Assembly (NCBI RefSeq): GCF_011762155.1
Contig: NZ_JAASQL010000001.1
Span: 1,674,001-1,738,000, forward strand
Direction of reading: 5' to 3'
From: Wenyingzhuangia heitensis
GTDB taxonomy: Bacteria; Bacteroidota; Bacteroidia; Flavobacteriales; Flavobacteriaceae
Length of the DNA: 64,000 nt
Position 1 is the stretch's first letter; each line of letters begins with the position of its first letter. Position numbers and translations under genes: made by a program. Below, piece after piece: positions 14,945-45,802 of this stretch. A model generated the notes under the pieces. The model was not told the DNA's origin. It did not search any database and saw nothing but the letters and a program-made list of their open reading frames with translations.

Positions 14945-15145
14945 AGAATAATAATTTAAATATTAGTGTTTGGTGAATGTAAAATAAATCAATTTTGACT
15001 TATTTTACAGTAATAGAGGTTTGCTACTTTTTTTAAAGAGAGTACTTTATTGTTTTGTCTATTTATATTGTATAATATTGTTTGTTGTAGTTGTTAATAG
15101 TAAGTTTTAGTCTTAAATTATTTTGTTTAGTTGTATCCAATTTAT

Positions 15146-18100
15146 ATGCGATTATTGTATCATTTTCTGTTTTTCTTATTTTATTTCGGCTTTAATACTT
15201 ATGCTTTTCAGCCTACATTCCATCATTTAACTACAGAAAATGGTTTGGGATCTAACATTGTTCGCTGGGTGTATCAAGACAACGATGGTTTTATTTGGAT
15301 TTCTACCAAAGCAGGTTTGTCTCGTTATGATGGATATGAAATTAAAAATTATGAGGTAAGTAATTCTCAAAAAGGATTTTTAAGAGATATGGTTATTAGT
15401 GAGCCTATAGAATTAGATAATCGCTATTTGCTATTTACATCAACTAAAGGAATTTTTAGTTATGATAAACAAAAGGATACCTTTCAGTATTTATCAAATC
15501 ATTTAAAGGAATTAAACGGAACAAAATTTTTAACTTATGATGATGATAAAAATGTATGGACAGCAAAAAACAATGTTGGTTTTTACAAATTAATTTATAA
15601 CAAAGATAGCATTCAAAAAGTAGACTTTGTAAATGGAAAACAATTTGGTTTTTCTATGAGAAAAGCTAATATGATTCATACAGATAGTCAAGGAGATGTT
15701 TGGTTGTTTTCTTCTGGTTTTATTGCAGTGGTAAGAAATAAGACCCAAAGTATAGAAATGGTTAAAAATTGGTCTATAGGTTATGCAAGTTTTTATGAAC
15801 TATCTGATAAAAACTATATAATTACAGATACTGCAGGTTTTTACTATTCTTTAAATCCAAAGACTTTAGAGATAACACCCTATCAAAATAATTTTACTAA
15901 AAACAGAGACATTCGTCATAACTTTAAAAGCGTTTTTTTAGATACAAAAACTATTTTAGGAATTTCAAGAAGAGACGGATTGTTTTATTTAACACATAAT
16001 TCTGAAAAAAAACAAATTAGTCTCGTTCATAATTTTCAAAAACAACCTGGAGTTAAGCAGGCTTTAAGTAGTAATAATATTAGGCATGTTTTTGTAGATA
16101 AAGCCAACAATGCTTGGTTGTCTACAGATGGTGGAGGTGTGTGTTATTTTAATTTAAAACCCAATAAATTTAAACATATAAAATACAATGGTAAAAAAGG
16201 AGGCCTAAGTGATAGTTATATATCTTCTCTTTATGAAGATAAATATTGCAATCTATGGGTGTCTGTTTGGCAAAGCGATGTAAATGTGTTACCAGCAGGA
16301 AATTCTTATGACAATTTTAAATATTTAAAAAATGAAGACATTACCTCTAGCAAATCTTTAGGATATGGTACTGTTGCTTCTTTTGCAGAATTTAATCAAC
16401 ATCAAAAATCTGTAATGTTGTTGGGAACTAGTAATTATAAGTACTTAAAAAATTATAGAGAATTAAATTTTAAAAACCCCTTAATTAAAAATTTAGAAAC
16501 AAAAAGTTTACATAGAAAATCTAGAATAGAAGATTTTTTGATAGAGGATGAAACACTTTGGATTTGTAGAGCCGAATTAGGGCTTGAAAAACACACTTTA
16601 GATGCTAAAGGAAACATAATTAAAAGTGAGTTTTTTAAGGAGATTCCTAAATATGTTGAGCTTTATAAGGAGGCAGGACAGTGTCATTATATTCATAAAG
16701 ATGCAAACGGAATTATTTGGGTAGTACACGAGTCTTCCGTTTTTAGAATCATAAATACAAATAATATTTATGATGTAAAAGCCCTAAATATTGCTGATAG
16801 ATTGCAAATGATGCATGAAGATTCAAGAGGTTATTTGTGGTTTGTTACCAAAGGAAAAGGATTGATTAAATTAAAGGTAGATGCTTTAGGTACTATTATT
16901 TATAAAAAACATTTTACAACTCAAAATGGTTTTGCAGATGATTTTTTATACGCAATTATAGAAGATAAAGAAAATTATTTATGGATTGCTTCCAATATAG
17001 GTTTGATAAAACTAGATCCTATCACAGAAAAATATAAAGTATACGGAAAAGGAGATGGAGTCTTTGGTAAAAATTTTGTAGAACGTTGTTGTGTTTATCG
17101 AAAAAATGGTGAAATGGTATTTGGGACTACCAATGGAATGTATGTGTTTACGCCAGAAGAAATAGTAAATAATACAACAAGCCCAGAAACCGTAATTACA
17201 GGTTTTTATGTTTTTGATAAAAAAATGCAGGTTGGAGAAGAGTTGTTTGGACAACAAATTTTATCTAGTAATATAATTAAGACAAAACAAATAGAAGTTC
17301 CGTACAAAGCAAATGTACTAGCGTTTGAATTTGCAGCTTTGCATTTTGCCAATCCCAACGGGAATAAATTTGCTTATAAATTAGAGGGGTTTGATAAAAT
17401 ATGGAGAACTAGTAGTGCTAAAGAACGTAAAATTACCTACACTAATTTAAGAGAAGGGAAGTATACTTTTTTAGTAAAATCGGCTAACAAAGATGGAGTA
17501 TGGGATACTAGCCCAGCAAAAATAATAGTAACTGTAAAGCCTCCATTCAGGAGAACGTTAATAGCCTATGTTCTTTATTTAATAGGAGTTTTTTTATTTG
17601 TTTTGATAATATGGATCTATTATTCTAAACGTTTAAAAATGAAACAAGCATTAGAAATGGAGCGTTTTGAAAAAACAAAAATAGAAGAGCTTTCACAAAT
17701 GAAAATGCGATTCTTTACCAATATATCACACGAGTTTAGAACTCCTTTATCTTTAATTAAAGCGAGTATTGAAAGTCTTTCTGAAAGGTCTAAAGAAGAT
17801 AAAAAAGACAAAGAATATGTTAAAATTACCAATCGAAATATCTCTATATTATTAAGATTGGTCAATCAATTGATTGATGTTCGTCGTTTTGATCAGAAAA
17901 AAATGAAACTAGAAAAAGAAGAAACAGCTATTGTTTCTTTTGTAGAAGACACGGCACAATCTTTTTTAGCCGTGGCAAACAAGAAACAGGTCTTGTTTGA
18001 GTACAAAGCAACAAACGCTTCTTTGGTTACAGAAATAGATCAAGATAAAATTGAAAAAGTAATTTACAACTTACTTTCTAACGCATTTAAACACACCAAT

Positions 18101-19297
18101 GCCAAAGGAAGTGTTAAAATAGAAGTGCTAATAAAAGAAAATATATTTGAAATTGTAGTTACAGACACAGGGAAAGGAATTCCTGAAAAACACAGAGCTT
18201 CTATTTTTGAACGTTTTTACCAAGGTGAAAAAGTAAAATCAGAAAACATGGGAAGCTCTGGTATAGGACTCTCTTTAACCAAAGATTTTGTAGAAATGCA
18301 CGGAGGAACCATATCTTTTATAAGTAAAGAAAATGTGGGAACTACGTTTACAGTGAGCATTCCTACAACTACTCAGAACATAGAAAACAAGGAACTCTTA
18401 ACGCTTGTTCAGAATGAGGTTGCTACAACAAAACCAGTCAGTCCAACAGTGTTTGATCCTGATAAAAAAACTCTTTTAGTAGTAGAAGACAACCTAGATT
18501 TACGAGAGGTATTGTGTAAAGGTTTGAGTGACTTGTACAATATTATTGAAGCAGAAAACGGAGAAATAGGTGTAGAAAAATGTACCCATCCAGATGATGA
18601 AATAGAAATAGATTTGGTGATTAGTGATGTAATGATGCCTGAAAAAAATGGATATCAATTGTGTCAGGAATTAAAAACAAATACAGAAACAAGTCACATT
18701 CCTATAATTTTATTGACCGCCAAAACAGCTGATGAACACAAGTTAGAAGGGTTTGATAAAGGAGCGGATGCTTATATAGAAAAACCGTTTAATTTTGAAT
18801 TGTTAAAGGCTCAGGTAAAAGCTATTTTAGATTCTAAACAAAAGCTAAGAGATTTTTATAGACAATTTCAAACAGAAAAAGTGTCTACTAAAAAATCTCA
18901 AGCAACTATTAAATGTTCCAAAAAAACGGTTAAAAATACTTTAGAAGTCAGTGATTATGACAACGAGTTGATGCAGAAAATAAAAGAAACCATTCAGGAA
19001 AAAATGCAAGAACCTACTTTTTCGGTAGAAGTTTTAGCCAAGGTTTGTGCTGTGTCAGAATCTACTTTAAGACGAAAAGTAAAGGCCTTAACAGGAGAAA
19101 GCCCTAGCTCTTTAATCAGGAATTATAAAATTCAGTTTGCAGGTGAGCTATTGCAACAAGAAAGCTACACAGTGTACAGTGCCATGCATGATGCTGGTTT
19201 TTCTAACTATGCCAATTTTTCTAAACTGTTTGCCAAAGAATTTGGAAAAACACCGGGAGAATATAGAAAAGAACAACATCCAGATTTGAAAAATTAG
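15146..19297 (+). CDS. Hybrid two-component system regulator (HTCS)
   Basis: One-protein sensor, kinase and regulator of 1383 residues in the inner membrane. In order: signal/anchor helix at the N terminus; about 14 periplasmic two-bladed propeller repeats (for example GSNIVRWVYQDNDGFIWIST, then KAGLSRYDG); a Y_Y_Y domain ending near residue 800; a membrane helix at about 803-826; HisKA with H862 in NISHEFRTPLS; HATPase_c with DTGKGIP and GIGLSLT; a receiver domain with D1161 in VISDVMMP; and a C-terminal AraC-type double helix-turn-helix (about 1275-1375). HTCS proteins bind oligosaccharides directly and switch on the adjacent locus. Here the target is presumably the GH86 operon beginning 177 bases downstream. 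The Met at 15146 is preferred over a TTG five codons earlier because the signal helix follows it directly. Confidence 0.93.
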   Translation: MRLLYHFLFFLFYFGFNTYAFQPTFHHLTTENGLGSNIVRWVYQDNDGFIWISTKAGLSRYDGYEIKNYEVSNSQKGFLRDMVISEPIELDNRYLLFTSTKGIFSYDKQKDTFQYLSNHLKELNGTKFLTYDDDKNVWTAKNNVGFYKLIYNKDSIQKVDFVNGKQFGFSMRKANMIHTDSQGDVWLFSSGFIAVVRNKTQSIEMVKNWSIGYASFYELSDKNYIITDTAGFYYSLNPKTLEITPYQNNFTKNRDIRHNFKSVFLDTKTILGISRRDGLFYLTHNSEKKQISLVHNFQKQPGVKQALSSNNIRHVFVDKANNAWLSTDGGGVCYFNLKPNKFKHIKYNGKKGGLSDSYISSLYEDKYCNLWVSVWQSDVNVLPAGNSYDNFKYLKNEDITSSKSLGYGTVASFAEFNQHQKSVMLLGTSNYKYLKNYRELNFKNPLIKNLETKSLHRKSRIEDFLIEDETLWICRAELGLEKHTLDAKGNIIKSEFFKEIPKYVELYKEAGQCHYIHKDANGIIWVVHESSVFRIINTNNIYDVKALNIADRLQMMHEDSRGYLWFVTKGKGLIKLKVDALGTIIYKKHFTTQNGFADDFLYAIIEDKENYLWIASNIGLIKLDPITEKYKVYGKGDGVFGKNFVERCCVYRKNGEMVFGTTNGMYVFTPEEIVNNTTSPETVITGFYVFDKKMQVGEELFGQQILSSNIIKTKQIEVPYKANVLAFEFAALHFANPNGNKFAYKLEGFDKIWRTSSAKERKITYTNLREGKYTFLVKSANKDGVWDTSPAKIIVTVKPPFRRTLIAYVLYLIGVFLFVLIIWIYYSKRLKMKQALEMERFEKTKIEELSQMKMRFFTNISHEFRTPLSLIKASIESLSERSKEDKKDKEYVKITNRNISILLRLVNQLIDVRRFDQKKMKLEKEETAIVSFVEDTAQSFLAVANKKQVLFEYKATNASLVTEIDQDKIEKVIYNLLSNAFKHTNAKGSVKIEVLIKENIFEIVVTDTGKGIPEKHRASIFERFYQGEKVKSENMGSSGIGLSLTKDFVEMHGGTISFISKENVGTTFTVSIPTTTQNIENKELLTLVQNEVATTKPVSPTVFDPDKKTLLVVEDNLDLREVLCKGLSDLYNIIEAENGEIGVEKCTHPDDEIEIDLVISDVMMPEKNGYQLCQELKTNTETSHIPIILLTAKTADEHKLEGFDKGADAYIEKPFNFELLKAQVKAILDSKQKLRDFYRQFQTEKVSTKKSQATIKCSKKTVKNTLEVSDYDNELMQKIKETIQEKMQEPTFSVEVLAKVCAVSESTLRRKVKALTGESPSSLIRNYKIQFAGELLQQESYTVYSAMHDAGFSNYANFSKLFAKEFGKTPGEYRKEQHPDLKN

Positions 19298-19353
19298 ATA
19301 GTCGTTGTTTATACCTGTTGAATTGTTAGGTAAAGTCTAGTTGTTTATAGACT

Positions 19354-19400
19354 ACAAAATCGGTCAATGTTTGAATATTTCAAATGTTGACCGATTTTGT
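19354..19400 (+). repeat. Long inverted repeat between the HTCS gene and the first GH86 gene
   Basis: 14-bp perfect outer arms (19354-19367 with 19387-19400) continue, after two bases that can pair as U-G wobbles, into a 6-bp inner stem (19370-19375 with 19379-19384) with a 3-base loop. The whole can fold as a 22-bp hairpin. It lies 57 bases after the HTCS stop and 75 bases before the GH86 start. It could be the HTCS terminator, although no U-tract follows, or the HTCS binding site; HTCS proteins are known to bind upstream of their target operon. Confidence 0.6.
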
Positions 19401-19417
19401 CATTAAAACTACAGCTG

Positions 19418-19448
19418 TTGTGTGGTAATTTAGGTGAGTCTAATTTTT
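19418..19448 (+). promoter_or_regulatory. Candidate promoter of the GH86 operon
   Basis: TTG (19418-19420), 20 bases, then TAATTTTT (19441-19448), one mismatch from the -7 consensus. The start codon lies 26 bases downstream. A weak -7 box fits a promoter needing an activator such as the HTCS protein, whose candidate site lies just upstream. Confidence 0.4.
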
Positions 19449-19474
19449 AGGTGCTACTTAAAACACAATATATC

Positions 19475-21457
19475 ATGGCTAAAAATTTATTTTCATTTCT
19501 ATTCGTTTTGGGAGCCTTGGCAAGTTCTTGCTTTGCTCAAAAAACAAGTACTGCTAAAGAAATAAACATCAATGTAGAACTAAATACCAAACATATTGTA
19601 AATGGTATTGATGAATTTGATAGAGAAAAATATATTACCATTCATGCAGATTTAAGTGGTAGTGATTGGGAAGGAGATAATTTAATTAATGATGTAAGAA
19701 CAGAGTTCTTAGAAAAATACGATGTCTATTTAGGACGTGAGTCTGGTGGATTAACGGGAGCATTAAAAAGAGCTGCAGAAGATCCAAACCGTCCAGGATA
19801 TATAGATGTAGAAAAATTAAAAAAACAGGGAGAAAATGCTCGTAAAAGTTATGCTCAAAAAAAGAAGAATTTTGAGCACTTAGAGTATAGAACTAAAAAT
19901 ATGTTGGTGGTGAATCAGTTTCACCCCATTTGGCCTACCGATCATTATAAAAATAAATTAGGTTGGTCTATTTCTGATGAAGACACCAAAAAGAATCCTT
20001 TTGGTTCTGCCTCTGCCGAATTTGTTTCTACTTATATGAAAAACTACTTTGGTGGAGAAGGAGAACCTCGTCCAAAATACTTAGAGGTCATCAATGAACC
20101 TTTGTGGGATTTAATTCCGATTAAAGACAGAGGAGACGAGAAAAAAGAAAGAGCAGCCATAGAAAAATTGGCGAAATTCCATAAAACCATTGCAACCAAA
20201 GTAAAAGCAGAAAATCCAGATGTATTGGTTGGAGGTTTGACATGTGCTTTTCCCTATTTTGAAATGTATGATTTTAAGCGTTGGGAATACCGTTGGAAAA
20301 ACTTTATTGATCTGGCTGGAGATGATATGGATTTTTGGTCTATTCACTTGTACGATTTTCCCTGTAAAACTTTAGGAGGTGGGAAAATTCACAAAAGATG
20401 GAGAAAAGGAAGTAACATGGAGGCAACTTTAGACATGTTAGAGCAATATAGTATGATGAAATATGGAAACTTAAAACCCATCATTATTACAGAATACGCT
20501 GCACAAACACACCAAGTAAAGTTTGACCCTTGGACTCCTTACAGAGATTGGTTGTATATTAAAAGTGCCAATTCTATGATGATGTCTTTTATGGATCATC
20601 CGCAAAGTGTTGCTATGGCCATTCCATATATTATGTTAAAATGTGAATGGGGACGTGGAAAAGATGGAAATCCGTATAGAAGTAGATTGTTCCGTCAGCA
20701 GTTTGAAGGAGAAGGTGAAAAAGGAGATAAATGGGTGTATAGTGATATGGCTAAGTTTTACATGCTTTGGGCAGATGTAAAAGGAAAACGTTTAGATATT
20801 ACTGCAAACAATGTAGACCTACAAACAGATGCTTATGTAAACAAAAACAAAGTATATGTTATTGCCAACAACTTACTTCCAGAAAAAAACACGTTGAATA
20901 TTGCTTTAAATGGGAATAAAAATAATCCATTAATCAGTATTAAAAAGAAACATTACCACGCACCTGTAGAGGGTAAAGGTGGAGTGATTGATGAAGAAAA
21001 CTACACAGAGAACAAACAGATTGAATTAGGAAAAGAAGCAACTGTTATTTTAGAATATACCTATGAGAAGCCTTTGGAATTGACACATATTTCTGAAGAA
21101 GTAAAATACTATGCAGAAGAATATTATCAGCCAATAAAAGGAGAGAAAAAGAACAAGTTCAACTTAAAGGATGTAGTAGCAAATAGCAACAGTAGAGCTA
21201 CCTTAAGAGTAAGTATTGCACGTGACCACGGTCAGAACTTAAGCCCCATAATATGGGTAAATGGAACCAAAATAACTGTTCCAGAAAATTACAAAGGATT
21301 GCCACAAACAGACCGTAATAGATTCTACGGAACATTAGACATTCCGGTTCCTGCCAACATATTAAAGAAAAATAACAAAGTAGCAGTGTTGTTTCAAGAA
21401 GATGGAGGTCAGGTAGCAAGTGTAACAATGAGAGTATTTAATAAAAAACAACAATAA
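19475..21457 (+). CDS. GH86 endo-beta-galactanase (beta-agarase/beta-porphyranase type), first copy
   Basis: Exported glycoside hydrolase of 660 residues with a signal peptide ending near SSCFAQ. The catalytic TIM barrel shows the GH86 pattern: FDREKYITIHADLSGSDW, EKYDVYLGRESGGLTGAL and WSIHLYDFP. The likely acid/base is E208 in VINEPLW and the likely nucleophile E340 in ITEYAAQ, as expected for clan GH-A. Two C-terminal beta-sandwich parts follow (about 440-660). GH86 enzymes cut beta-1,4 links in agar, porphyran or funoran backbones by a retaining mechanism. The second copy at 23347-25341 is about two thirds identical by eye. The ATG at 19475 is chosen over an upstream GTG because the signal peptide starts there. 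One base separates its stop codon from the sulfatase start. Confidence 0.82.
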   Translation: MAKNLFSFLFVLGALASSCFAQKTSTAKEININVELNTKHIVNGIDEFDREKYITIHADLSGSDWEGDNLINDVRTEFLEKYDVYLGRESGGLTGALKRAAEDPNRPGYIDVEKLKKQGENARKSYAQKKKNFEHLEYRTKNMLVVNQFHPIWPTDHYKNKLGWSISDEDTKKNPFGSASAEFVSTYMKNYFGGEGEPRPKYLEVINEPLWDLIPIKDRGDEKKERAAIEKLAKFHKTIATKVKAENPDVLVGGLTCAFPYFEMYDFKRWEYRWKNFIDLAGDDMDFWSIHLYDFPCKTLGGGKIHKRWRKGSNMEATLDMLEQYSMMKYGNLKPIIITEYAAQTHQVKFDPWTPYRDWLYIKSANSMMMSFMDHPQSVAMAIPYIMLKCEWGRGKDGNPYRSRLFRQQFEGEGEKGDKWVYSDMAKFYMLWADVKGKRLDITANNVDLQTDAYVNKNKVYVIANNLLPEKNTLNIALNGNKNNPLISIKKKHYHAPVEGKGGVIDEENYTENKQIELGKEATVILEYTYEKPLELTHISEEVKYYAEEYYQPIKGEKKNKFNLKDVVANSNSRATLRVSIARDHGQNLSPIIWVNGTKITVPENYKGLPQTDRNRFYGTLDIPVPANILKKNNKVAVLFQEDGGQVASVTMRVFNKKQQ

Positions 21458-21458
21458 A

Positions 21459-23309
21459 ATGAACAAGTATTTTTTAATAGTAAGTTCAGTTTTGTGTTTT
21501 GTTTTGGGTGTGTCTAGTTTCCATGCCCAAACAAAGCCAAATATTTTATGGATTATTACAGACGACCACAGAGCAGATGCTTTGAGCTGTTTTAACCAAG
21601 CAACTATAGGAAAGTCAGACAGTCCGTTAGGGTATGTGTCTTCTCCAAATATTGACAAATTAGCATCCGAAGGAGTATTGTTTGTAAATGCATTTAGCAA
21701 CTCACCTGCTTGTGGTCCTTCTAGAGGTTCTATGACCTCAGGTCGTTATCCTTTTAGAAACGGGCATTATGCGTTTGAAGTTACACATAAAGAGCCAGAT
21801 TTTGTAAAACCAACAATACCTCAAGTTTTAAGAAAACAAGGTTATGGAACCGCAGTATTTGGAAAAGAAGATTCTTATATTTTTAAATGGAAAGGAAAGC
21901 AAGGGTATTATGATACAGGAATGTACGATTACAAAGTACATTTTAAACACGATTTGCAAGACAATGGTTTAGGGGATATTTATACCAAAAGTAACTTTGA
22001 GTACATTAAAGGATTTAGAAAGAAAACAGGAAGCAAAGAGAATATTGTTTTTAAAGATGGAACTAAGAAGTCTTATGTAATCTATAGAAAAGGAACAGAT
22101 TTAAAACCAGAAGAAATTGCAACTAAAAAAGGAATTGACAAAGAGTTTGACATCTTAAGAGCGTATACCCAAGGAATGAAAGACTTGATTTATGGAGGAG
22201 TAAACCCACAACCTGCAGAAAAAACGGTAGATGCCAATATTCTTACCGAGTTTAAAAGCTATTTAAACAACCAAGATCAAGGGTTTAAAACATTATGGGG
22301 TAAAAAAGCAAAAGGAGCCAATTCTAAAAAACCGTTAATGGTAAATCTTGGTTTTCACTTGCCACATACACCTGTATTGCCTCCAAAAAAGTTTAGAGAT
22401 CAATTTAAAAACAAGAAATACAAAATCCCTGCTTTTAGTAATGAGGAATTGGAAAAACTTCCTGTTCAGTTGAAAAAAATATACAAGGGGATGAAAATCA
22501 ATACCATGAAAGCCAAGGATAAGCAACAAGCTATTCAAGATTATTATGCTTTCTGTGCTTTTGGAGATTATTTAATTGGAGATGCAGTAAAAACGTTTAA
22601 AGACTATTGTAAAAAGAATGAGCAAGAATACTTAATTGTTTTTACGGTAGGAGATCATGGATGGCATTTAGGAGAACAAGGAATAGAGTCTAAGTTTGGA
22701 CCTTGGGACAAGTCTATTCACAATGCAGCCATTGTAGTTTCTTCGGACAAAACAAAATATCCTGCAGGAAAGATTAATAAAAATACTATTGAGTTTGTAG
22801 ATTTTGCCCCCACTATCTTAGATGCTGGTGGTGTAGATGTAACAAGTAAAGAATATAATTATTTGGATGGTTTTGTTATTTCTGATGTAATGAATGGGAC
22901 TAAAAAAAGAGATTATGTATTGGGAGAAATGAACTTGGTATGTGGACCTCGTGCTTATTTAAGAACCAAAGATTTTGCTTTTTCTATGCAAACAAGACCT
23001 ACCAGAAAAGAACCTAGTGGTTTAGAAATGAATAAAAATATAGAATGGGCTTTGACTTGTGATATGAAAGAGATTAGTCCTGCTTTGTACGATTTACGCA
23101 AAGATCCACTAGAACGAAATAATGTTGCTGATAATCAAGAGTATAAAGAATTAGTGACTTGGTTCCGTAATAAATTAGGAAATATTGTTTTGGGAGATGG
23201 TCGTGTAGAGTGTGATTGGTCACAAGCCAATAGTTATGCCATCAGTAATTTTGCAGGAGGTGCAGATGATAAAAAGATTGAAATTCCAACAGCTATAGTA
23301 CCAAAATAA
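21459..23309 (+). CDS. Exported S1-family formylglycine sulfatase
   Basis: Sulfatase of 616 residues with a signal peptide (about 1-24). C85 in the motif CGPSRGSMTSGR is the residue converted to formylglycine, and R89 follows as required. D35 and D36 in WIITDDHRAD and the later GDHGWHLGEQ provide metal ligands. It removes ester sulfate from sugar residues in the periplasm or outside. Placed between two GH86 genes, it probably acts on sulfated galactose or galactose-6-sulfate units of a red-algal galactan; the S1 subfamily cannot be assigned by reading. The maturase that would modify C85 is not in the window. Confidence 0.93.
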   Translation: MNKYFLIVSSVLCFVLGVSSFHAQTKPNILWIITDDHRADALSCFNQATIGKSDSPLGYVSSPNIDKLASEGVLFVNAFSNSPACGPSRGSMTSGRYPFRNGHYAFEVTHKEPDFVKPTIPQVLRKQGYGTAVFGKEDSYIFKWKGKQGYYDTGMYDYKVHFKHDLQDNGLGDIYTKSNFEYIKGFRKKTGSKENIVFKDGTKKSYVIYRKGTDLKPEEIATKKGIDKEFDILRAYTQGMKDLIYGGVNPQPAEKTVDANILTEFKSYLNNQDQGFKTLWGKKAKGANSKKPLMVNLGFHLPHTPVLPPKKFRDQFKNKKYKIPAFSNEELEKLPVQLKKIYKGMKINTMKAKDKQQAIQDYYAFCAFGDYLIGDAVKTFKDYCKKNEQEYLIVFTVGDHGWHLGEQGIESKFGPWDKSIHNAAIVVSSDKTKYPAGKINKNTIEFVDFAPTILDAGGVDVTSKEYNYLDGFVISDVMNGTKKRDYVLGEMNLVCGPRAYLRTKDFAFSMQTRPTRKEPSGLEMNKNIEWALTCDMKEISPALYDLRKDPLERNNVADNQEYKELVTWFRNKLGNIVLGDGRVECDWSQANSYAISNFAGGADDKKIEIPTAIVPK

Positions 23310-23346
23310 TATACGTCCCAATGAAAAGGGATTATCAAGAGAAATA

Positions 23347-25341
23347 ATGATACAGAAAAAGATAAAAAAGAACTTGTTCCTATTAGGAATGTTGTTCGTT
23401 GCAGGAACTTCTTGTTTTGCACAATATGGTGATGCTCCAGAAACAAAAATCAACGTTACACTAAACACCAATCACGTAGTAAATGGGATAGATTCTTTTG
23501 ATAGAACCAAATACATCACATTACATGCAGATTTAAAAGGATCCGATTGGCAAGGAGACAATGTAATACCAGATGTAAGAGCAGACTTTTTAGAAAAATA
23601 CGATGTGTATTTAGGTCGTGAATCTGGTGGCTTAACAGGAGCTTTAAAAAGTGCAGCAGAAGATGCAAATCGTCCTGGCTATGTAGATTTGGCAAAGTTG
23701 CGTGAATCTGGAGAAAAAAATCGAAAGCATTACAGTTGGAAAAAGAAAAAGTACGGTTTTGAACATTTAGAATACAGAACCAAAAACATGATGGTGGTAT
23801 CTCAATTCCATCCACTTTGGCCTAATGGCTATAAAAATAAATTAGGTTGGACCTTGTCTGATGAGGATACCAAAGAACATCCTTTTGGAACGGCATCTGC
23901 TGAGTTTGTAGCTGCATATATGAAAAACTTTTTTGGTGAAGAAGGAGAACCAAGACCCAAATATATGGAAGTGATTAACGAACCTTTGTGGGATTTGTTA
24001 AAAGAAAGAGGAACTCCAGATATGGAGTTTGAGAGAGCTACCACTACACAAATGGCGGAGTTTCATAATGTGGTTGCTAAAAAGGTAAAAGAAATAAATC
24101 CAGATGTAAAAGTAGGAGGATTTGCAACTGCTTTTCCACATTTTGAAAAGTTTGATTTTAAACGATGGGACTATAGATGGAAGAATTTTATAGATGTTAC
24201 AGGTAACAATCTAGATTTTTGGTCTATTCATATTTATGACAACCCTAATCATTTAAGAAAAGATGGTACGGTGTACCAAAGATGGAGGAAAGGGAGTAGT
24301 GTAGAAGCCACGTTAGATTTATTGCAACAATACAGCATGATTAAATTGAACAAAGTAATGCCTTTGGCCATAACAGAATATACGGTACAGGTAGGACATC
24401 ATTTAAAGTTTGCTCCTTGGTCTCGTTACAGAGATTGGTTGTATGTAAAAAGTGTAAACTCTTTGTTGATGAGTTTTATGGATCAACCACAAAACATAGA
24501 ATTGGCCTTGCCATTTTTTATGCTAAAATGTGAATGGGGAAGAGATAAAAAAGGAAACCCTTATAGAAGTAGATTGTTACGTCAGCAATTTGAAGCTGAA
24601 GGAGAAACAGGAGACAAATGGGTGTATACAGATTTGGTTAAATTCTATCAACTATGGTCAGACGTAAAAGGAAAACGTTTGGATATTGCTACCGATAATA
24701 TAGACATACAAACAGATGCCTATGTAGATAAAAACAAGGTGTATGTAATTGCAAACAACTTATTACAAGTAGAAAATATGTTGGATATCAATTTAGAAGG
24801 AACTAAAAAAAATAAATTGATAAGTATAAAAAAGAAACATTACCACGCACCAGATGGTAAAGTAGGAGTGATTGATGAAGAAGTATATACCGAAAACAAA
24901 AAAGTAACAATAGACAAAGAGGGAACCGTAATTTTAGAATACACATTTAAGAAAAAAGTCAAGTTGACTCATATCTCTAAAGAATCTAAACATTATTCAG
25001 AAGAATATTTACAACCTATTGTAAGTCATCAAAAAGCGACTTTTAACATTAATGAAGTTGTTGTTAGTAAAGAAAGTAAAGCCGTGTTAAGAGTCAGTCT
25101 TGCTCGTGATCATGGTCAGAACTTACACCCAAAAGTATTAGTGAACGGAACAGAAATTAACGTTCTAGAAAATTATAGAGGAGAACCACAAACCCACAGA
25201 GATAGATTCTTTGGTGTGATTGAAATTCCTGTAGCAACTCAATTGTTACAAAAAAACAACAAGGTAGAAGTGTTGTTTCAAGATAATGGAGGTCATGTTG
25301 TAAGTGTTACCCTAAGAGCATTTAATAGAAGTAAAAAGTAA
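23347..25341 (+). CDS. GH86 endo-beta-galactanase, second copy
   Basis: Exported enzyme of 664 residues with a signal peptide ending near TSCFAQ. It repeats the layout of the first GH86: FDRTKYITLHADLKGSDW, GRESGGLTGAL, acid/base E212 in VINEPLW, nucleophile E344 in ITEYTVQ, and the same C-terminal beta-sandwich region with RDHGQNL. Differences cluster in loops, for example KDRGDEKKERA in copy one against RGTPDMEFERA here, and DFPCKTLGGG against DNPNHLRKDG. Such loops line the substrate cleft, so the two may prefer different sulfation or methylation patterns. The pair arose by duplication around the sulfatase. Six bases separate it from the MFS gene. Confidence 0.82.
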   Translation: MIQKKIKKNLFLLGMLFVAGTSCFAQYGDAPETKINVTLNTNHVVNGIDSFDRTKYITLHADLKGSDWQGDNVIPDVRADFLEKYDVYLGRESGGLTGALKSAAEDANRPGYVDLAKLRESGEKNRKHYSWKKKKYGFEHLEYRTKNMMVVSQFHPLWPNGYKNKLGWTLSDEDTKEHPFGTASAEFVAAYMKNFFGEEGEPRPKYMEVINEPLWDLLKERGTPDMEFERATTTQMAEFHNVVAKKVKEINPDVKVGGFATAFPHFEKFDFKRWDYRWKNFIDVTGNNLDFWSIHIYDNPNHLRKDGTVYQRWRKGSSVEATLDLLQQYSMIKLNKVMPLAITEYTVQVGHHLKFAPWSRYRDWLYVKSVNSLLMSFMDQPQNIELALPFFMLKCEWGRDKKGNPYRSRLLRQQFEAEGETGDKWVYTDLVKFYQLWSDVKGKRLDIATDNIDIQTDAYVDKNKVYVIANNLLQVENMLDINLEGTKKNKLISIKKKHYHAPDGKVGVIDEEVYTENKKVTIDKEGTVILEYTFKKKVKLTHISKESKHYSEEYLQPIVSHQKATFNINEVVVSKESKAVLRVSLARDHGQNLHPKVLVNGTEINVLENYRGEPQTHRDRFFGVIEIPVATQLLQKNNKVEVLFQDNGGHVVSVTLRAFNRSKK

Positions 25342-25347
25342 AATTGT

Positions 25348-26952
25348 ATGAAAGCAAACAATTCAAAAAGAGTTTTATATGTTGCTATTGTAGTCACTTT
25401 AGGAGGTTTTATATTTGGTTTAGATGTAGCATTAATTTCTGGAACCGTAGATTTTTTAAAAGTAGAATTTGGTTTATCTGAATTTGAAAAAGGATTGATT
25501 GCAAGTGCCTCTGCCTGGGGAGCTTTAGTCGCATTGCCATTGGCAAGTGTTATAAGTGAACGCTTGGGAAGGAAATCTGCTTTGATTATGGTAGCTGCTT
25601 TGTATGTAGTTTCTGCGGTATCATCAACCTTTGCAACAAGTTTTAATACCTTGTTTGCGGCTCGTTTCTTGGGAGGTTTGGCATTTTCGTCTCTCTCTTT
25701 AGCAAGTATGTACATTGGAGAGGTTTCTCCTCCAAAAATGAGAGGGAAGTTGGTGTCACTGAATCAGATCAATATTGGAGTAGGGTTGTTGGCTGCGTAT
25801 TGCATCAACTATATTATATTACACGGTGCAAATTCTGGTGCCGATTGGGCAATCTCTTTAGGAGTAGATCAACATACTTGGAGATGGATGTTGGGAGTAG
25901 AAATTATTCCTGCTACTATTTGGTTGATTTTATTGTTTACTATTCCCAAAAGTTCACGATGGTTATTGTACAAATCAAGAGTAGAGGAAGCTAAAAAAGT
26001 ATTGTTTCGATTGTTGCCAAGTGCTACAGGAGAACAAATTACCGAAATGGAAGTGAATGCAAAAGTTATTTCTATTCAAAAAAGTATAGAGAACGAAGGA
26101 GTAAAAGGTTCGGCTTGGTCACAGTTAAAAGAGTTATTTACACCTCGTTTAAGAAAAGTTTTATTGATTGGAGTTAGTATCGCATTGGCACAACAAATTA
26201 CAGGGATCAATGCTATTAAATATTACGCTCCTAGTTTGTTTGAACAATTAGGAATTGGTCGTGATAGTGCTTTTATGAGTGCTATTTGGGTAGGATTGTC
26301 TAGTTTTTTAGCTACACTTTTATCTTTAGCTTTTATAGATAGATTAGGAAGAAAACCAATTGCTATTGGAGGTATTGCTATGATGGTTATTTGTTTGGGA
26401 GTTTGTTCTTACGGATTTAAATCTGCAACCTATACTATTAGTAATAATGCTTTGGTTCAACTAGAAGAAATTCCAAACGTATCGGCATTAAAACCACTTG
26501 AAAACAAAACATTTTACAGCGATGTGAACTTTAAAAAAGCATTAAAAGAAGCTCTTGGGGAACAAGAAGCTCATAAATATGCGAGTTTGATCTTACAAAA
26601 AACAGCAAACATCAATTCGATACTTATTTTAATTGGAGTGATTTTATTTGTAGCTGCGTATAATTTTTCATTAGGACCTATTATGTGGGTATTGCTATCA
26701 GAAATTGTACCTACATCTTTGCGAAGTGGAGTAATTCCATTTTTTGCATTGATAACGGCACTGGTCAGTGCCTTTGCTCAGAATTTATTTCCTTGGCAAT
26801 TAGAAGTGTTAGGAGCAGGAAATACCTTTTTAATTTTTATGGCATTTGGAGTTGTAGGTTTTGTGTTGCTGAATAGAAATCTAGTAGAGACAAAAAACAA
26901 ACCTATTGAAGAGATAGAAGCAGAATTGATAGGAATGTCTAAAAAGAAATAA
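25348..26952 (+). CDS. MFS sugar-porter family transporter
   Basis: Inner-membrane proton or sodium symporter of 534 residues with twelve predicted helices. Sugar-porter signatures are visible: GLDVALISG in helix 1, ERLGRKSA after helix 2, ISLA-type AQQITGINAIKYYAPSLF in helix 7, and DRLGRKP after helix 8. A soluble insert of about 50 residues (around 365-420) lies between helices 9 and 10, longer than in most porters. With no SusC/SusD in the locus, this is the only visible importer for the products of GH86 cleavage or for monosaccharides. Substrate is inferred from context only. Confidence 0.88.
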   Translation: MKANNSKRVLYVAIVVTLGGFIFGLDVALISGTVDFLKVEFGLSEFEKGLIASASAWGALVALPLASVISERLGRKSALIMVAALYVVSAVSSTFATSFNTLFAARFLGGLAFSSLSLASMYIGEVSPPKMRGKLVSLNQINIGVGLLAAYCINYIILHGANSGADWAISLGVDQHTWRWMLGVEIIPATIWLILLFTIPKSSRWLLYKSRVEEAKKVLFRLLPSATGEQITEMEVNAKVISIQKSIENEGVKGSAWSQLKELFTPRLRKVLLIGVSIALAQQITGINAIKYYAPSLFEQLGIGRDSAFMSAIWVGLSSFLATLLSLAFIDRLGRKPIAIGGIAMMVICLGVCSYGFKSATYTISNNALVQLEEIPNVSALKPLENKTFYSDVNFKKALKEALGEQEAHKYASLILQKTANINSILILIGVILFVAAYNFSLGPIMWVLLSEIVPTSLRSGVIPFFALITALVSAFAQNLFPWQLEVLGAGNTFLIFMAFGVVGFVLLNRNLVETKNKPIEEIEAELIGMSKKK

Positions 26953-26963
26953 TTATTTTAAAG

Positions 26964-27812
26964 ATGATTTTTAAAAAATACCTAGCTATTGTTTTAGCAT
27001 TCTTTCCTTTGCTATTATCGGCACAATATAAAACTGCAGGAGCAGATCAATTGGGTTGGGAATTGGCTGTGCATTCAGTTTGTTTTAGCAAGAATACGTT
27101 AGAACAGGCAATGGATAGTATCAAAGCTACGGGAATAACTTCATTTATAGCATATAGAGGAGCTCAGCAAGTAGAGACTTTAAAAGAGCGAATGAATTAT
27201 ACAATAGCACAAAGCAAATTATCTAAACTTCAAAAAATAATTCAAAGAAAAGGATTGTCTCTAAAGCATTTTAGTGTGATTAACGTAGAAAGCAAAGAAG
27301 AATGGAAAAAACTATTTGAGTTTGCCAACGCTATGAATGTTAAAATGATTTTGAGCGAACCAGCGTATGAGCACTTACCTTATATTGATACACTTGCGCA
27401 AGCTTATAAAATTAAAGTAGGAATCCACAATCATTCGGTACCTTCTAGATATTGGCATCCACAAACTGCGATTTCTTACCTCAAGAAATACAATTTGAGC
27501 AAGTATATTGGTTTGTATCCAGATACAGAAAATTGGATAAGATCTGGGTTGGATCCTATAGAAATGTTAAAGTTAGCTGAAGGAAGAATTATAGCAATAC
27601 AACTAAAAGATCGATATAAAAAACCTGCACCATTAGGTTTAGGAAAAATACCTGTTTCGGGAATATTACACGAGTTGAAACGTCAAAAATTTAAAGGGAT
27701 TATTTCTCTAGAATTTTTTAGCAGTTCAGAATACAAGGTAGCTCATATAAAAAAATCTGCTGACTATTTTTATGAGGTTGCCAATTATTTGGTCTCTGTT
27801 CCTAGTAAGTAA
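26964..27812 (+). CDS. Exported sugar phosphate isomerase/epimerase-like TIM-barrel protein
   Basis: Protein of 282 residues with an N-terminal signal peptide ending LLLSAQ. The rest matches the xylose isomerase-like/AP-endonuclease-2 TIM barrel: GWELAVHSVCF, MILSEPAYEHLP, KVGIHNHSVPSRYWHP, YPDTENWIRSGLDP, AIQLKDR and GIISLEFFSS, with His, Asp and Glu positions that usually hold a divalent metal. Exported members of this superfamily are frequent in algal-polysaccharide loci, but their reactions are mostly unknown. It lies 11 bases after the MFS gene and 26 before GH117. Periplasmic isomerization of a free sugar is possible. Confidence 0.78.
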   Translation: MIFKKYLAIVLAFFPLLLSAQYKTAGADQLGWELAVHSVCFSKNTLEQAMDSIKATGITSFIAYRGAQQVETLKERMNYTIAQSKLSKLQKIIQRKGLSLKHFSVINVESKEEWKKLFEFANAMNVKMILSEPAYEHLPYIDTLAQAYKIKVGIHNHSVPSRYWHPQTAISYLKKYNLSKYIGLYPDTENWIRSGLDPIEMLKLAEGRIIAIQLKDRYKKPAPLGLGKIPVSGILHELKRQKFKGIISLEFFSSSEYKVAHIKKSADYFYEVANYLVSVPSK

Positions 27813-27838
27813 AAGCTACTTTATAAATATATATTATT

Positions 27839-28915
27839 ATGACACAAAAACTAAGTGCAGCAACCATTAGAGCACAAAAATATAGTAAAGATTCAACATG
27901 GTATTGTGAATTCAAAACCTCAGAAATCACGGGAGTTTTAGGAACCCAAGAAAAAGGTGTAGTACGTCGTGATCCTAGTGCGGTTATTAAGGTAGATGGA
28001 GCTTACCATGTTTGGTATAGCAAATCTACAGGAAGGAGTTTTGGTTTTGGAAGCGGAGATGCAAATAACAAAACCTTTCCTTGGGATTATTGCGAAATAT
28101 GGCATGCCACTAGTAATGATGGTTGGCATTGGGAAGAACAAGGAGTTGCCGTTACTAGAGGAGTAACTGGTTCTTATGATGAACGTAGTGTCTTTACTCC
28201 AGAAGTATTGGCTCATAATGGAAAATATTATTTGGTGTATCAAACAGTAAAGTCACCTTATGTGAGACGTTCGTTTGAAAGTATTTCTTTAGCAGTTGCA
28301 GAAAGTCCAGAAGGACCATGGAAAAAAGTAGATGGCCCTATTTTAGAACCTGTAAAAGATGGAAAGTGGGAAGGAGAAGAAGACAATCGATTTAGAGTAG
28401 AACTAAAAGGAAGTTTTGACAGTCATAAAGTGCACGATCCTACGTTAATGGCTTATAAAGGAAAGTTCTATTTGTATTACAAAGGAGAACCAATGGGAGA
28501 GCAAATGCACGCAGGAGGTAGAGAAACCAAATGGGGAGTAGCTATTGCAGACCAACCTGAAGGACCTTATGTACGAAGCGAGTATAACCCTGTAACCAAC
28601 TCAGGACATGAAGTTTGTATTTGGCATTACAACGGAGGAATAGCAGCAATGTTAACTACAGATGGGCATGAAAGGAATACCCTTCAATGGTCATCAGACG
28701 GAATTAATTTTGAAATCATGTCTCATATTAAAGGAGCTCCAGAAGCAAACGGATTGTACAGGTTTGAAGAAAGTTTTGAAAAGCCTTTGCAAGGATTGAG
28801 CTGGGGATTGTGTCATGAAGTAGACAGTCAAACAGGTTTTATGAAGCGGTTTGATTTGGATGAGTACATGAAACAGTGTTATACAAATAAAGAGAATTAC
28901 ATTTTTAGAAAATAA
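27839..28915 (+). CDS. GH117 alpha-1,3-(3,6-anhydro)-L-galactosidase-like enzyme
   Basis: Five-bladed propeller enzyme of 358 residues that releases the non-reducing-end 3,6-anhydro-L-galactose, or a related alpha-L-sugar, from neoagaro-type oligosaccharides. Key residues fit the family: D45 in RRDPSAV, D200 in KVHDPTL, H257 and E258 in SGHEVCIW. Their spacing (155 and 58) equals what I recall for characterized GH117 enzymes, where the histidine serves as the acid. The conserved N-terminal [10 protein letters not shown] helix, used for dimerization, is present. No signal peptide is seen, and an in-frame stop lies just upstream, so no longer start is possible. The enzyme is therefore likely cytoplasmic, which is unusual for this family. 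Confidence 0.92.
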
Positions 28916-28921
28916 AATAAG

Positions 28922-31738
28922 ATGAAAATTAAAGAATATTCAAATAAGTTAGTTTTACTGATCCTTTTGCTTTTAACAGGGGTGGTAAGTTCGGCACAAG
29001 AATCCTTTTTTAAAAAATTAGAAAAGGAGTCCGTGGCATCTACAAATACCGTTGTATGGGAATCTATGTCTGCAGGAAATTCGGGTTTTGCTAATTTATT
29101 GCGTTACCATCCAACCATTCCAAAATTAGTGGCTTTTTGTCCGGATATGTGGAATGCCTATCAAACAGAAAATAATGGAACGAGTTGGTATGGAACTACT
29201 GACCCTGATGGTGATGGCTCTTTTTATCATTTAAGAGACTTAGGTTACTCTGTAAGTGAACCTACTTTTGCGTTGGCTTTAGGACGATCAGAATTGTGGC
29301 AAAGTACAGATACAGGAAAAACCTGGAAAGTTGTGCCTAATTGTCCTTGGTATAAAGTAGATACGGATGGAAGCGATTTAGAAGGATGGAAACCTAAAAT
29401 GGCTACTTTGGCTATTGATCCTACAGATAAAAATGTTTGGTATGCAGCAGGTGGTGCTAATGTAAAAAGACAAATGTGGGTTTCTTCTTTTCAGAAAAGT
29501 ACAGCAGCAACACCACATGGAAATAGTGCTCTGTTAGAAGGGAAATTATGGAGAACTAAAAATGGAGGTAAAAGTTGGTATCTGTCTAATAAAGGAATTC
29601 ATCCTAAAGCACAAGTAGGGAATATTATTGTAAATCCAACAAATTCTAAGCAGGTTTTTGCGGCTTCTAACTACGGATTGTATCGTTCTGATAACGGAGG
29701 AAAAAGTTGGAAGCATATTTCTAAAGGAAAGTTAGAGAATGATATTATTAGAGATATGGACTTTTATTACAATGCCAAAACAGGTCAGTTTATTTTGTAT
29801 CTAATAGACCAGGTTCATTACCAGCCTATGGGTAAAACAACTACTTGTACCGGAGGAATTTTTTATTCAGAAGATGAAGGAGTAACTTGGAGAAAAATGA
29901 ATGGAGATTTAGGGTTAGATATCAATCAATTGAGTGGTGGAGTACCACAAAACTATTACAAATACATTGCCAAATGGTTTGGGATTTCGTCTAGTAAAGC
30001 AAAAAAACTATATCCTGAATTGCCTAAAAATGCTGTACAAAGTTTTAATATGATTTGTGCAGACCCAAGTCGAGAAGGAGCTTTATATATTGGTTTTGCA
30101 GATCCTCAAAAATCGTATTCTATTTTACCAGGTCGTGTTTGGACAACAGATAATTATGGAAGAAAATGGACAAATACTGCAAGAATGTATACTGATGCTT
30201 GGGAAAAAGACAAACAGTATTGGAAATCTAGAAACAATCCTACACATCAAAATATGACCGTAGGACATTATTCTCCGCATATGCGTTTTGGAACCGATTA
30301 TGCTTTACGTTCTTTAAGAGCAATGGATGTTGGTGTGGATGGAAGTGTGATGATGGTGTCTGACCATAGTACTATGTTAAGTACAGACCACGGAAAAAGC
30401 TGGCATCAAGTAGACGAAGATACAACACCTTCTGGAGCAATTGTAGGACGTGGAAATAGTAATTTACCAGCGTTACATATAGCACAAGACAAACGATTTA
30501 AATCGACTCTTTTAGGTTCTAGTGAAAATTATCTTTGGATTCCTACTGGAGAAAAATTGAATGGAACTCAAGCTTTACAATTTGTAAACAGCACACAATC
30601 GTCTGTAAACTGTATTGCTTTTGATCCTTATGATGCAAAAACGGTATATTCTACTTCTAGTCGACAAGAAGAAAAACAATACATGTATAAAAGTAAAGAT
30701 GGCGGACAAAATTGGAAGGAGTATTCTGTAGCTACACCTGCAACTAAAAAATGGTTTGATGATTTTTATACCAATGGATTGACTATAGATCCTATCAATA
30801 ATCAATATATGTATTATGGAATTACTCAAATAGTAAATGCTAAACGCGGATTAGAAGGAGGTTTTTTTGTATCTAAGGATTATGGAAAAACGTTTCAGCA
30901 AAGCAATGCTGGTTTGCCTTCTCCTAGCAGAATTAACGATATTGAATTTGACCCAAGAGATGAAACACGTGCTTCTTTATTTGCGGCAGCTCAACACAGT
31001 CAGTCGGGATATTTTAAAGAAGCTCCTAATACAAAAGAAGGAGGCTTATATCATTCAACAAACCGAGGAACAACATGGACTAAAATTAATACTCCTAAAA
31101 AGGTAAAAGGAGTTCATTTTATAACAATAGATCATACCAACCGTATGTATATTTCTACAGGATACAGAAAAGCTAAAACAGGAGGTGTTTGGTATACAGA
31201 TGATTTTGGATACTCTTGGAATCAAATATTTACCTACCCAGAAGTAGAATGTGTAGAGGTTTCTCCTTTTGATCATAACCTAATTGCTGTAACGGTAAAG
31301 TTCACTGCTAAAAACCCAGGAGTATTTATCAGTCGTGATCGTGGAAAAACTTGGACTAAGAATAATAAAAATATTGGAATTCCGCATCAAATAGAAGATA
31401 TAAAATTTGATATACACAATGCAGGTGAGCTGTGGTTGGCTTCTAGAGGTTGTGGTTTTTACAAAGGAAAAATAGAAAATGGAGACAAGGTACAAGTGGT
31501 TAAAGTGTCTCAGGATGTTGTGGAAAGTAAAGATCGTAAAAAGGTGCAATTAAGTGCTAAGATTATTAATTCAGATTATTACGGACAAAAGATTGTTTGG
31601 AAATCGGAAAACCCAGGTATTGCGAAAGTCAACAAAAAAGGAGAAGTTACTCCAGTAAGCAAGGGACAAACCAAAATATGGGCTACAACCAAAGACGGTC
31701 GTTTTTCAGATTTTAGTGTGATTACCGTTTTTCCTTAA
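28922..31738 (+). CDS. Large exported Asp-box (BNR) propeller protein with C-terminal Big2 domain
   Basis: Exported protein of 938 residues with a signal peptide ending VVSSAQ. At least eleven Asp-box motifs are readable, such as STDTGKTW, TKNGGKSW, SDNGGKSW, SKDGGQNW and SRDRGKTW, spread over about 110-840. This points to two beta-propellers or one large one, like GH74 xyloglucanases, sialidases or sortilin-type proteins. The last ~80 residues resemble a bacterial Ig-like Big2 domain (IVWKSENPGIAKVNKKGEVT). I cannot assign a known enzyme family. Position after GH117 suggests a further galactan-acting hydrolase, lyase or binding protein. Six bases separate it from GH117. Confidence 0.7.
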   Translation: MKIKEYSNKLVLLILLLLTGVVSSAQESFFKKLEKESVASTNTVVWESMSAGNSGFANLLRYHPTIPKLVAFCPDMWNAYQTENNGTSWYGTTDPDGDGSFYHLRDLGYSVSEPTFALALGRSELWQSTDTGKTWKVVPNCPWYKVDTDGSDLEGWKPKMATLAIDPTDKNVWYAAGGANVKRQMWVSSFQKSTAATPHGNSALLEGKLWRTKNGGKSWYLSNKGIHPKAQVGNIIVNPTNSKQVFAASNYGLYRSDNGGKSWKHISKGKLENDIIRDMDFYYNAKTGQFILYLIDQVHYQPMGKTTTCTGGIFYSEDEGVTWRKMNGDLGLDINQLSGGVPQNYYKYIAKWFGISSSKAKKLYPELPKNAVQSFNMICADPSREGALYIGFADPQKSYSILPGRVWTTDNYGRKWTNTARMYTDAWEKDKQYWKSRNNPTHQNMTVGHYSPHMRFGTDYALRSLRAMDVGVDGSVMMVSDHSTMLSTDHGKSWHQVDEDTTPSGAIVGRGNSNLPALHIAQDKRFKSTLLGSSENYLWIPTGEKLNGTQALQFVNSTQSSVNCIAFDPYDAKTVYSTSSRQEEKQYMYKSKDGGQNWKEYSVATPATKKWFDDFYTNGLTIDPINNQYMYYGITQIVNAKRGLEGGFFVSKDYGKTFQQSNAGLPSPSRINDIEFDPRDETRASLFAAAQHSQSGYFKEAPNTKEGGLYHSTNRGTTWTKINTPKKVKGVHFITIDHTNRMYISTGYRKAKTGGVWYTDDFGYSWNQIFTYPEVECVEVSPFDHNLIAVTVKFTAKNPGVFISRDRGKTWTKNNKNIGIPHQIEDIKFDIHNAGELWLASRGCGFYKGKIENGDKVQVVKVSQDVVESKDRKKVQLSAKIINSDYYGQKIVWKSENPGIAKVNKKGEVTPVSKGQTKIWATTKDGRFSDFSVITVFP

Positions 31739-31775
31739 GAGTTAGTAAACAAAGTCAAAGATTAAAATAGATAAA

Positions 31776-32615
31776 ATGAATCAAAAAATAATTGTAATAA
31801 CAGGAGCTAGCGGCGGTGTGGGAAGTATGCTAGCTTTGGGATTAGCTAAAAAAGGAAATTATATTGTTTGCTTGGGAAGAAACAAGGAGGCTTTGTTAAA
31901 TCTTGCAAATAAAATTAATAACGAAACTCAATCCGTAGGTGGAGAAGCTACTATTGAATTGGTAGATATGATGGATGCTGAAGCCGTTGAGGTGGTAGCT
32001 AAGAAAATAAAAAAACAGTTTGGTAGAATAGATGTTTGGATTAATAATGTAGGAGTAAACAACCACAATGCTATTGGACCTACTTGGGAATTAGAGCCTA
32101 AGAATTGGTGGAATGAAGTAGCACTGAACTTAAACACAGCCTATATTGGATCTGCAATTGCCATTAATCTAATGAAAGCTAAAAATTACGGGTATGTAAT
32201 AAATCTAGGAGGAGGTGGTGTACAAAAGCCAAAATCTTATGGTTCTGCATATGGAGCTGCCAAAACTGCCATTGTGAAATTTACGGAAACATTAGCATTG
32301 GAATTGGAAGCTGAAAATTTAGAAATTAAAACTTTTGCTTTTAATCCAGGGTTTATACGTAACAAAAGAACCGAGAAATTGGTGGATTCTGATGTTTGTA
32401 AAAAATACATGCCAAGGTTAGAGAATACGTTAAAACATGGTAAGATGTCTAATATAGAAGATTCTATAGAAATGATAGAGGTATTAATAAGTGGAAAAGC
32501 CAATGCTTTGACAGGTCGCTATTTTTTAGCAGATGATGATGAAATGAAAGCTGTTTTGTTGGATGTTGATAAGTATGTACAAAAAGGATTAGGGTTGTTG
32601 CATTTAAAAAAATAA
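31776..32615 (+). CDS. Short-chain dehydrogenase/reductase family protein lacking the usual catalytic serine
   Basis: Cytoplasmic NAD(P)-binding protein of 279 residues. The Rossmann glycine motif is ITGASGGVG, the NNVG motif is in INNVGVNN, and the catalytic pair Y159/K163 lies in YGAAK. The serine normally 13 residues before the tyrosine is replaced by glycine in the run LGGGGVQ (145-148). The enzyme may use another residue, act on an unusual sugar, or have lost activity. As the last gene of the galactan locus it could oxidize or reduce a released sugar such as anhydrogalactose. Its TAA stop abuts the convergent trmD stop codon with no spacer. Confidence 0.82.
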   Translation: MNQKIIVITGASGGVGSMLALGLAKKGNYIVCLGRNKEALLNLANKINNETQSVGGEATIELVDMMDAEAVEVVAKKIKKQFGRIDVWINNVGVNNHNAIGPTWELEPKNWWNEVALNLNTAYIGSAIAINLMKAKNYGYVINLGGGGVQKPKSYGSAYGAAKTAIVKFTETLALELEAENLEIKTFAFNPGFIRNKRTEKLVDSDVCKKYMPRLENTLKHGKMSNIEDSIEMIEVLISGKANALTGRYFLADDDEMKAVLLDVDKYVQKGLGLLHLKK

Positions 32616-45797: not shown

Positions 45798-45802
45798 TTC
45801 TC

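Follow-up and report, generated by a model that had tools for sequence, protein, structure and literature searches.

A galactan locus of Wenyingzhuangia heitensis without SusC/SusD and a candidate remote SusCD pair for its outer-membrane uptake

Several described systems resemble the locus studied here, a block of nine genes at 15146–32615 of a 64,000-nucleotide stretch of Wenyingzhuangia heitensis DNA (contig NZ_JAASQL010000001.1, positions 1,674,001 to 1,738,000; hereafter the window). The block encodes two glycoside hydrolase family 86 (GH86) proteins, a GH117, a sulfatase, a major facilitator superfamily (MFS) sugar porter and a hybrid two-component system (HTCS) regulator. The carrageenan polysaccharide utilization locus (PUL) of Zobellia galactanivorans, ZGAL_3145-3159, contains no susCD and has a distal, co-induced SusCD, according to the portion of the report that covers it (PMC5698469). 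In Saccharophagus degradans, the GH117 Aga117F has no secretion signal, and AgaT is described as a putative transporter in the relevant part of PMC3124978. In the agarose PUL of Bacteroides uniformis NP1, GH86 is predicted to be periplasmic and is placed at the neoagarobiose-making step; whether GH117 acts before transport or after it differs between systems, so that both routes are known in general (PMC5849685, sections on this pathway).

Like the Zobellia PUL, as far as the excerpted description goes, the window locus is a red-galactan locus without susCD that carries a sulfatase, an anhydrogalactosidase type of enzyme, an inner-membrane transporter and a regulator. The Zobellia PUL has GH127, a GH129-like protein and an AraC-family regulator, whereas the window has GH86, GH117 and an HTCS. 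Co-induction with the distal SusCD was shown in Zobellia and is a prediction for the window locus. Saccharophagus belongs to a different phylum. It is similar in its predicted cytoplasmic GH117 and in a sugar transporter proposed for neoagarobiose import, but its exo-agarases make the neoagarobiose, and no HTCS is mentioned in the excerpts describing it. The B. uniformis NP1 PUL, in its partial description, shares the periplasmic GH86, GH117, HTCS, sulfatase and an MFS proposed there for galactose import. Unlike the window locus, it includes SusC/D/E and a surface GH16, and its GH117B is placed in the periplasm. Clusters in other Flavobacteriaceae (Algibacter mikhailovii L147, which is genome G246; G320; G119) also have a signal-less GH117 a few genes from an MFS, but they encode a GH50-like agarase, labeled so from a weak Agarase_CBM match and BLAST. 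The L147 MFS belongs to another clade than the window MFS, in a tree that took in neither the G320:C4 nor the G119:C69 MFS. No account of a signal-less GH117 adjoining an MFS in Bacteroidota was seen in the literature searched, which left subscription papers mostly outside; in that literature, PMC3124978 alone speaks of a neoagarobiose transporter. The original prediction recognized no familiar locus in the gene mix. This holds for the exact mix, but a SusCD-less red-galactan locus with a distal SusCD is already published, for carrageenan in Zobellia (PMC5698469, in the portion cited above).

We consider it probable that the locus is an inserted island encoding that half of an agar-type galactan pathway which leads from the periplasm into the cytosol, with outer-membrane uptake borrowed from a remote SusCD, for which the pair at C3:172044-176868 is the best candidate. 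The genome (3.67 Mb, 26 contigs) has 15 SusD matches and 48 TonB-plug matches, and none of either lies in the window, which agrees with the predicted absence of SusC and SusD from the locus. The SusD nearest to the HTCS is at C1:1264519, 427 kb away; the nearest TonB plug, at C1:1769436, lies in an 812-aa frame with no SusD match nearby. The idea that the genome lacks SusCD was rejected on the 15 SusD matches. Sugar-porter MFS proteins are inner-membrane carriers, and the idea that the MFS replaces SusCD was rejected because a different membrane is involved. The framing of the original prediction, an MFS importer instead of SusCD, is therefore not supported, but homology speaks well for its suggestion of a SusCD elsewhere in the genome. 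The SusD of the B. uniformis pBUN1 agar cluster finds its best match among all 15 SusD loci in the C3 SusD (354 bits, next 204), and the pBUN1 SusC finds its best match in the C3 SusC (834 bits, next 709, among six full-length SusC and fragments). A susCD putatively matched in substrate, as judged by this homology, is thus present elsewhere in the genome, as in a PUL with a distal SusCD. The simplest solution to the uptake puzzle is a remote SusCD.

The C3 pair also lies near GH86 and GH117 genes, a placement that had been proposed as a check. The genome has four GH86 and nine GH117-like matches. One GH86 and the GH117 second closest to that of the window (56% identity) lie at C3:147-155 kb, together with a GH29-type fucosidase family protein, a GH2, RhaT and what looks by eye like an aldose epimerase. 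Further neighbors are an enolase-superfamily protein, an aldehyde dehydrogenase, a short-chain dehydrogenase/reductase (SDR) and a zinc alcohol dehydrogenase. The C3 GH86 has a type IX secretion system (T9SS) tail, and the C3 GH117 is of the lipoprotein type. The SusD match is 22 kb from the GH117 and 28 kb from the GH86; overall, some 10-25 kb separate the SusCD pair from GH86, GH117, GH2, RhaT and the likely anhydrogalactose pathway. The dehydrogenase and enolase genes are likely this pathway, judging from their neighborhood and from the gene list in the part of PMC10163077 consulted. Of 50 named GH86 loci, 14 of them with incomplete flanks, 18 carry a C3-type SusC or SusD (at least 45% identity) within 10 kb of the GH86; the 50 loci came from a contig scan with a widened alignment. 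A scan with the two window GH86 alone gave 122 pattern matches and no relative, and a scan of viral contigs for GH86 gave 90 pattern matches and no relative.

The genes of the locus are all on the plus strand, fill 15146-32615 and have intact frames. The co-directional, tight arrangement of HTCS, two GH86, sulfatase, MFS, GH117, Asp-box protein and SDR was described correctly before, but the ninth gene, at 26964..27812, was overlooked. Carbohydrate-active enzymes lie co-directionally with an HTCS-type regulator, as in a canonical PUL; the adjacent susC-susD pair of such a PUL is absent from the window locus. The HTCS (15146..19297; TTG start at 15131 according to the open reading frame (ORF) caller) contains Reg_prop, Y_Y_Y, HisKA, HATPase, receiver and AraC-type helix-turn-helix domains in Pfam. 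It is separated by 177 bp from the first GH86, and the gaps from there to the SDR are all 1-37 bp. A hairpin with a 22-bp stem, a 3-nt loop and arms with an A run and a T run occupies 19354..19400 (+) in the 177-bp gap; its fold has a z of −6.2, and none of 200 shuffles was equally stable. It is a probable terminator, or else an operator. Since this gap holds the hairpin, the HTCS is probably one transcription unit and the other eight genes an operon. A repeat of the hairpin motif was sought in the stretches of this genome that were examined, giving one 9-base match (L058). Promoter-like sites (69 vs 73.1 in shuffles) and terminator-like sites (10 vs 8.3) were at chance level.

The enzyme families are supported by structures and motifs. 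GH86 and GH117 were named from PDB matches at E < 1e-120. GH86 (a) (19475..21457, Pfam PF18206/PF18040; GTG start at 19451 according to the ORF caller), a predicted periplasmic beta-agarase, scored 577 bits with 5ta1, 559 with 8h97 and 215 with the GH86A porphyranase 4aw7, and GH86 (b) (23347..25341, also with Pfam matches) scored 583, 527 and 203 bits. The two are 66% identical. E216 and E348, which we take to be the catalytic residues, are invariant across nine sequences, consistent with GH86 membership. The sulfatase (21459..23309, PF00884) has the active-site motif CGPSR and only distant PDB relatives. The MFS (25348..26952; XylE/GlcP relatives) scored 292.9 bits with TIGR00879, above the curated cut-off of 237.8, and is thus a sugar porter. 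The best PDB match of the GH117 (27839..28915) is 3r4y, which we take to be the structure of S. degradans Aga117F. The RRDPSA, SGHE and TTDG motifs of the window GH117 align with 4ak5, and the H-to-D spacing of 18 is that of PpGH117. The Asp/His/Asp residues match the PpGH117 catalytic residues, as in enzymes of the 3,6-anhydro-alpha-L-galactosidase type; the general base is Asp90 and the acid dyad is His302/Asp320, according to the excerpt of PMC11574756. 5ta1 is given as GH86 in the part of PMC10163077 consulted.

The predicted compartments connect these enzymes to the uptake problem. By eye and hydropathy, signal peptides were assigned to both window GH86, the sulfatase, the isomerase-like protein and the Asp-box protein, and no T9SS tail was found in any of the five in Pfam at E <= 0.001. 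Both other GH86 of this genome have the tail, as do two of three scanned relatives; the third, from Flavobacterium sp. UMI-01 (L124), lacks it and, at 53% identity, is the nearest relative that the search gave. The window GH117 has no signal peptide, and upstream there is room for four further codons only. The window glycosidases and sulfatase, with the exception of the GH117, look periplasmic. With signal peptides and no T9SS tail, GH86 and sulfatase would therefore need oligosaccharides that are already past the outer membrane.

We compared GH117 and MFS neighborhoods in family samples covering 397 genomes (55 GH117 matches at E <= 1e-85; 61 MFS matches at E <= 1e-105, below which an MFS would be missed with or without a GH117 signal peptide). 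Of the GH117, 46 were read, two of them from this genome, and nine unfetched ones were left out. A hydrophobic N-terminus was seen in 40 of the 46. An MFS lay within 5 kb of four of the six signal-less GH117 (window, G320, G246, G119) and of one of the 40 with a signal (G017). We tentatively suggest, as a little less probable than not, that Flavobacteriaceae have a second route in which the relocation of GH117 to the cytosol went along with an MFS importer of disaccharides, so that neoagarobiose is imported and split inside. In the commoner route, a lipoprotein GH117 would split it in the periplasm and RhaT would import anhydrogalactose. This genome would have both, and the window operon would be a mobile, HTCS-controlled form of the second route, dependent on a different locus for passage across the outer membrane. 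The MFS is proposed as an importer of neoagarobiose or a derivative.

A pathway can be put together from these parts. Agarases encoded elsewhere would make oligosaccharides, which the C3 SusCD would import. The HTCS, judging from its domains, may sense a periplasmic oligosaccharide and induce the eight-gene operon. The two GH86 and the sulfatase would then cut and desulfate the oligosaccharides in the periplasm; their families are clear, and their activity and location are predicted. The MFS may take a disaccharide, probably neoagarobiose or a modified form, over the inner membrane. The GH117, whose catalytic residues are conserved, would cleave it, presumably in the cytosol, to give galactose and 3,6-anhydro-L-galactose, and the C3 pathway genes, assigned by family, may degrade the anhydrogalactose. 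These six steps assign no role to the isomerase-like protein, the SDR or the Asp-box protein.

Several observations weigh against this pathway. Among the 36 GH86 loci with full 10-kb flanks, a SusC- or SusD-like gene is present in 19 and absent from 17. The signal peptides were judged by eye and hydropathy, and the window GH117 lacks the first N-terminal residues seen in relatives. The association of signal-less GH117 with MFS (Fisher p = 4.4e-4) comes from a test that ignores kinship. No such MFS was found within 5 kb of the signal-less GH117 of G169 and G326, and G017 has a GH117 with a lipoprotein-type signal yet an MFS within 5 kb, with RhaT alongside. In a tree of 47 MFS rows, the window protein sits on a long branch, basal within a clade of 28 rows, a placement that the program itself flagged as unsure. 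In 23 of the 27 other rows of this clade, the loci contain a GH127-like gene and are of carrageenan type. The MFS adjoining GH50-like and GH117 genes form a separate clade, and the window locus contains no GH50. The window MFS substrate may thus not be neoagarobiose, because the protein groups with carrageenan-linked MFS. Co-regulation of the window locus with C3 is a prediction.

In place of plain agarose, the locus might act on a galactan that is sulfated or of mixed type, such as porphyran, funoran or an agar/carrageenan hybrid, the MFS carrying a different, perhaps desulfated, sugar. The sulfatase in the operon, the GH127-linked MFS clade and a sister locus of this genome are all consistent with it. 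The sister locus, C1:1552195-1564346 (L192), shares the isomerase (47% identity), sulfatase (54%), MFS (52%) and SDR (59%), and two agarase-like proteins with an Agarase_CBM domain, presumably GH50, and an FAD oxidoreductase replace GH86 and GH117. Because this core is shared, it may handle a modified disaccharide and not plain neoagarobiose. But both GH86 are nearer to the agarase entries 5ta1 and 8h97 than to the porphyranase 4aw7, the GH117 is of the anhydrogalactosidase type, and no GH127 is among the Pfam matches in the locus, so we regard a sulfated or hybrid target as unlikely, although it is the strongest competitor.

Uptake might instead bypass SusCD altogether: other cells or surface enzymes would release disaccharides or small oligosaccharides outside, porins would let these in, and the locus would feed on them. 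The locus does bring a sensor and an inner-membrane carrier of its own and lacks an outer-membrane pair, and S. degradans is thought to import neoagarobiose produced outside (PMC3124978, in the part describing AgaT). The GH86 without T9SS tails, however, would be nearly idle in the periplasm if disaccharides were the sole entrants, and the genome possesses an agar-type SusCD; we give this explanation a somewhat smaller chance than a sulfated target. It is very improbable that the locus is only an assemblage of acquired parts not expressed as a single pathway. Its insertion site is empty in four genomes of the genus, its GC content differs from the flanks, and no syntenic copy was seen among the loci fetched, but the nine frames are intact, the operon genes are spaced by 1-37 bp, and the sister locus contains four of them as a set. 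Borrowed uptake from a remote SusCD remains our preferred explanation.

The insertion itself is well delimited. The block lies exactly between rplS (ribosomal protein L19, 14514..14867, minus strand, TIGR01024) and trmD (32616..33293, minus strand, NF000648/TIGR00088). The trmD-rplS distance is about 17.7 kb here vs 163, 121, 121 and 130 bp in G397, G398, G228 and G399 of the same genus. Because rplS and trmD are adjacent in these four genomes, the block is an insertion. The operon genes have a GC content of 0.33-0.38 vs 0.31 in the flanks. In G383, also of the genus, the distance is 1.7 kb, and G400 gave no trmD match; outside the genus it is 213 bp in G025 and 1.7 kb in G002, and in G033 rplS was not found within the 3 kb read. 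The G383 junction (C1:1876001-1879000, L332) holds one ORF of 471 aa that looks sulfatase-like by eye. The junction may be a recurrent insertion site, because G383 carries a different insert there. GH86 relatives at E <= 1e-30 occur in 21 of the 397 family genomes, none above 45% identity apart from those of this genome, and a genus-wide MFS search gave nothing above 51% in six other genomes. Besides the window, the isomerase-sulfatase-MFS-SDR quartet was seen only in L192, among fetched loci of at least 10 kb and at the thresholds used; these loci were picked for other matches, and the comparison is therefore no census. L250 has the MFS-SDR pair.

The layout without SusCD is not unique in this genome, because three of the nine Y_Y_Y/HTCS matches (window, C3:279055 and C1:1639290) have no SusD within 70 kb; the other six have one within 8.4 kb. 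PUL surveys built on susCD pairs overlook loci of this kind. If the proposed pathway is true, the sugar that passes the inner membrane could be foretold from the GH117 signal peptide and the neighboring transporter, MFS or RhaT, which would make a testable rule for how agar is used. C1:1552001-1660000, read with 1590-1605 kb left out, is rich in sulfatase, GH2-like, GH43 and Asp-box genes; it contains the Y_Y_Y/HTCS match at 1639290 and no SusD or TonB plug match, and is another SusCD-less glycan region. C3:240001-290000 contains sulfatase and GH117-like genes and an HTCS at 276823-281046, with no SusD within 74 kb, and carries, on the minus strand at L212:6066-7925, a relative of the window sulfatase at 52%.

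The remaining proteins of the locus are a xylose-isomerase-like TIM barrel (26964..27812, Pfam AP_endonuc_2), an Asp-box/sortilin-like propeller with a Big_2 domain (28922..31738, Pfam) and a predicted cytosolic SDR (31776..32615, Pfam and NCBIfam). The predicted fold of the Asp-box protein is GH74-like: in Foldseek, ranks 1-24 all go to chains with GH74, xyloglucanase or a xyloglucan-acting enzyme in the title, with a TM-score on the query of 0.54-0.57 and 13-15% identity. The GH74 model is absent among its Pfam and NCBIfam matches. It was rejected as a locus marker, since its five closest relatives (53-65% identity, two in this genome) lie in neighborhoods without a GH86 match; several of these adjoin ribosomal-protein or amino-acid genes, read by eye. 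A third close copy, at C4:72102-74893, is read as two ORFs of 99 and 846 aa that overlap, perhaps through a frameshift. In the window, 12 kb downstream of the locus, a Gfo/Idh/MocA oxidoreductase adjoins a protein with a 3-keto-disaccharide hydrolase domain (PF06439) at 44469-47149, and a single protein at 60010-63975 combines CheR methyltransferase, PAS, histidine kinase and receiver domains.

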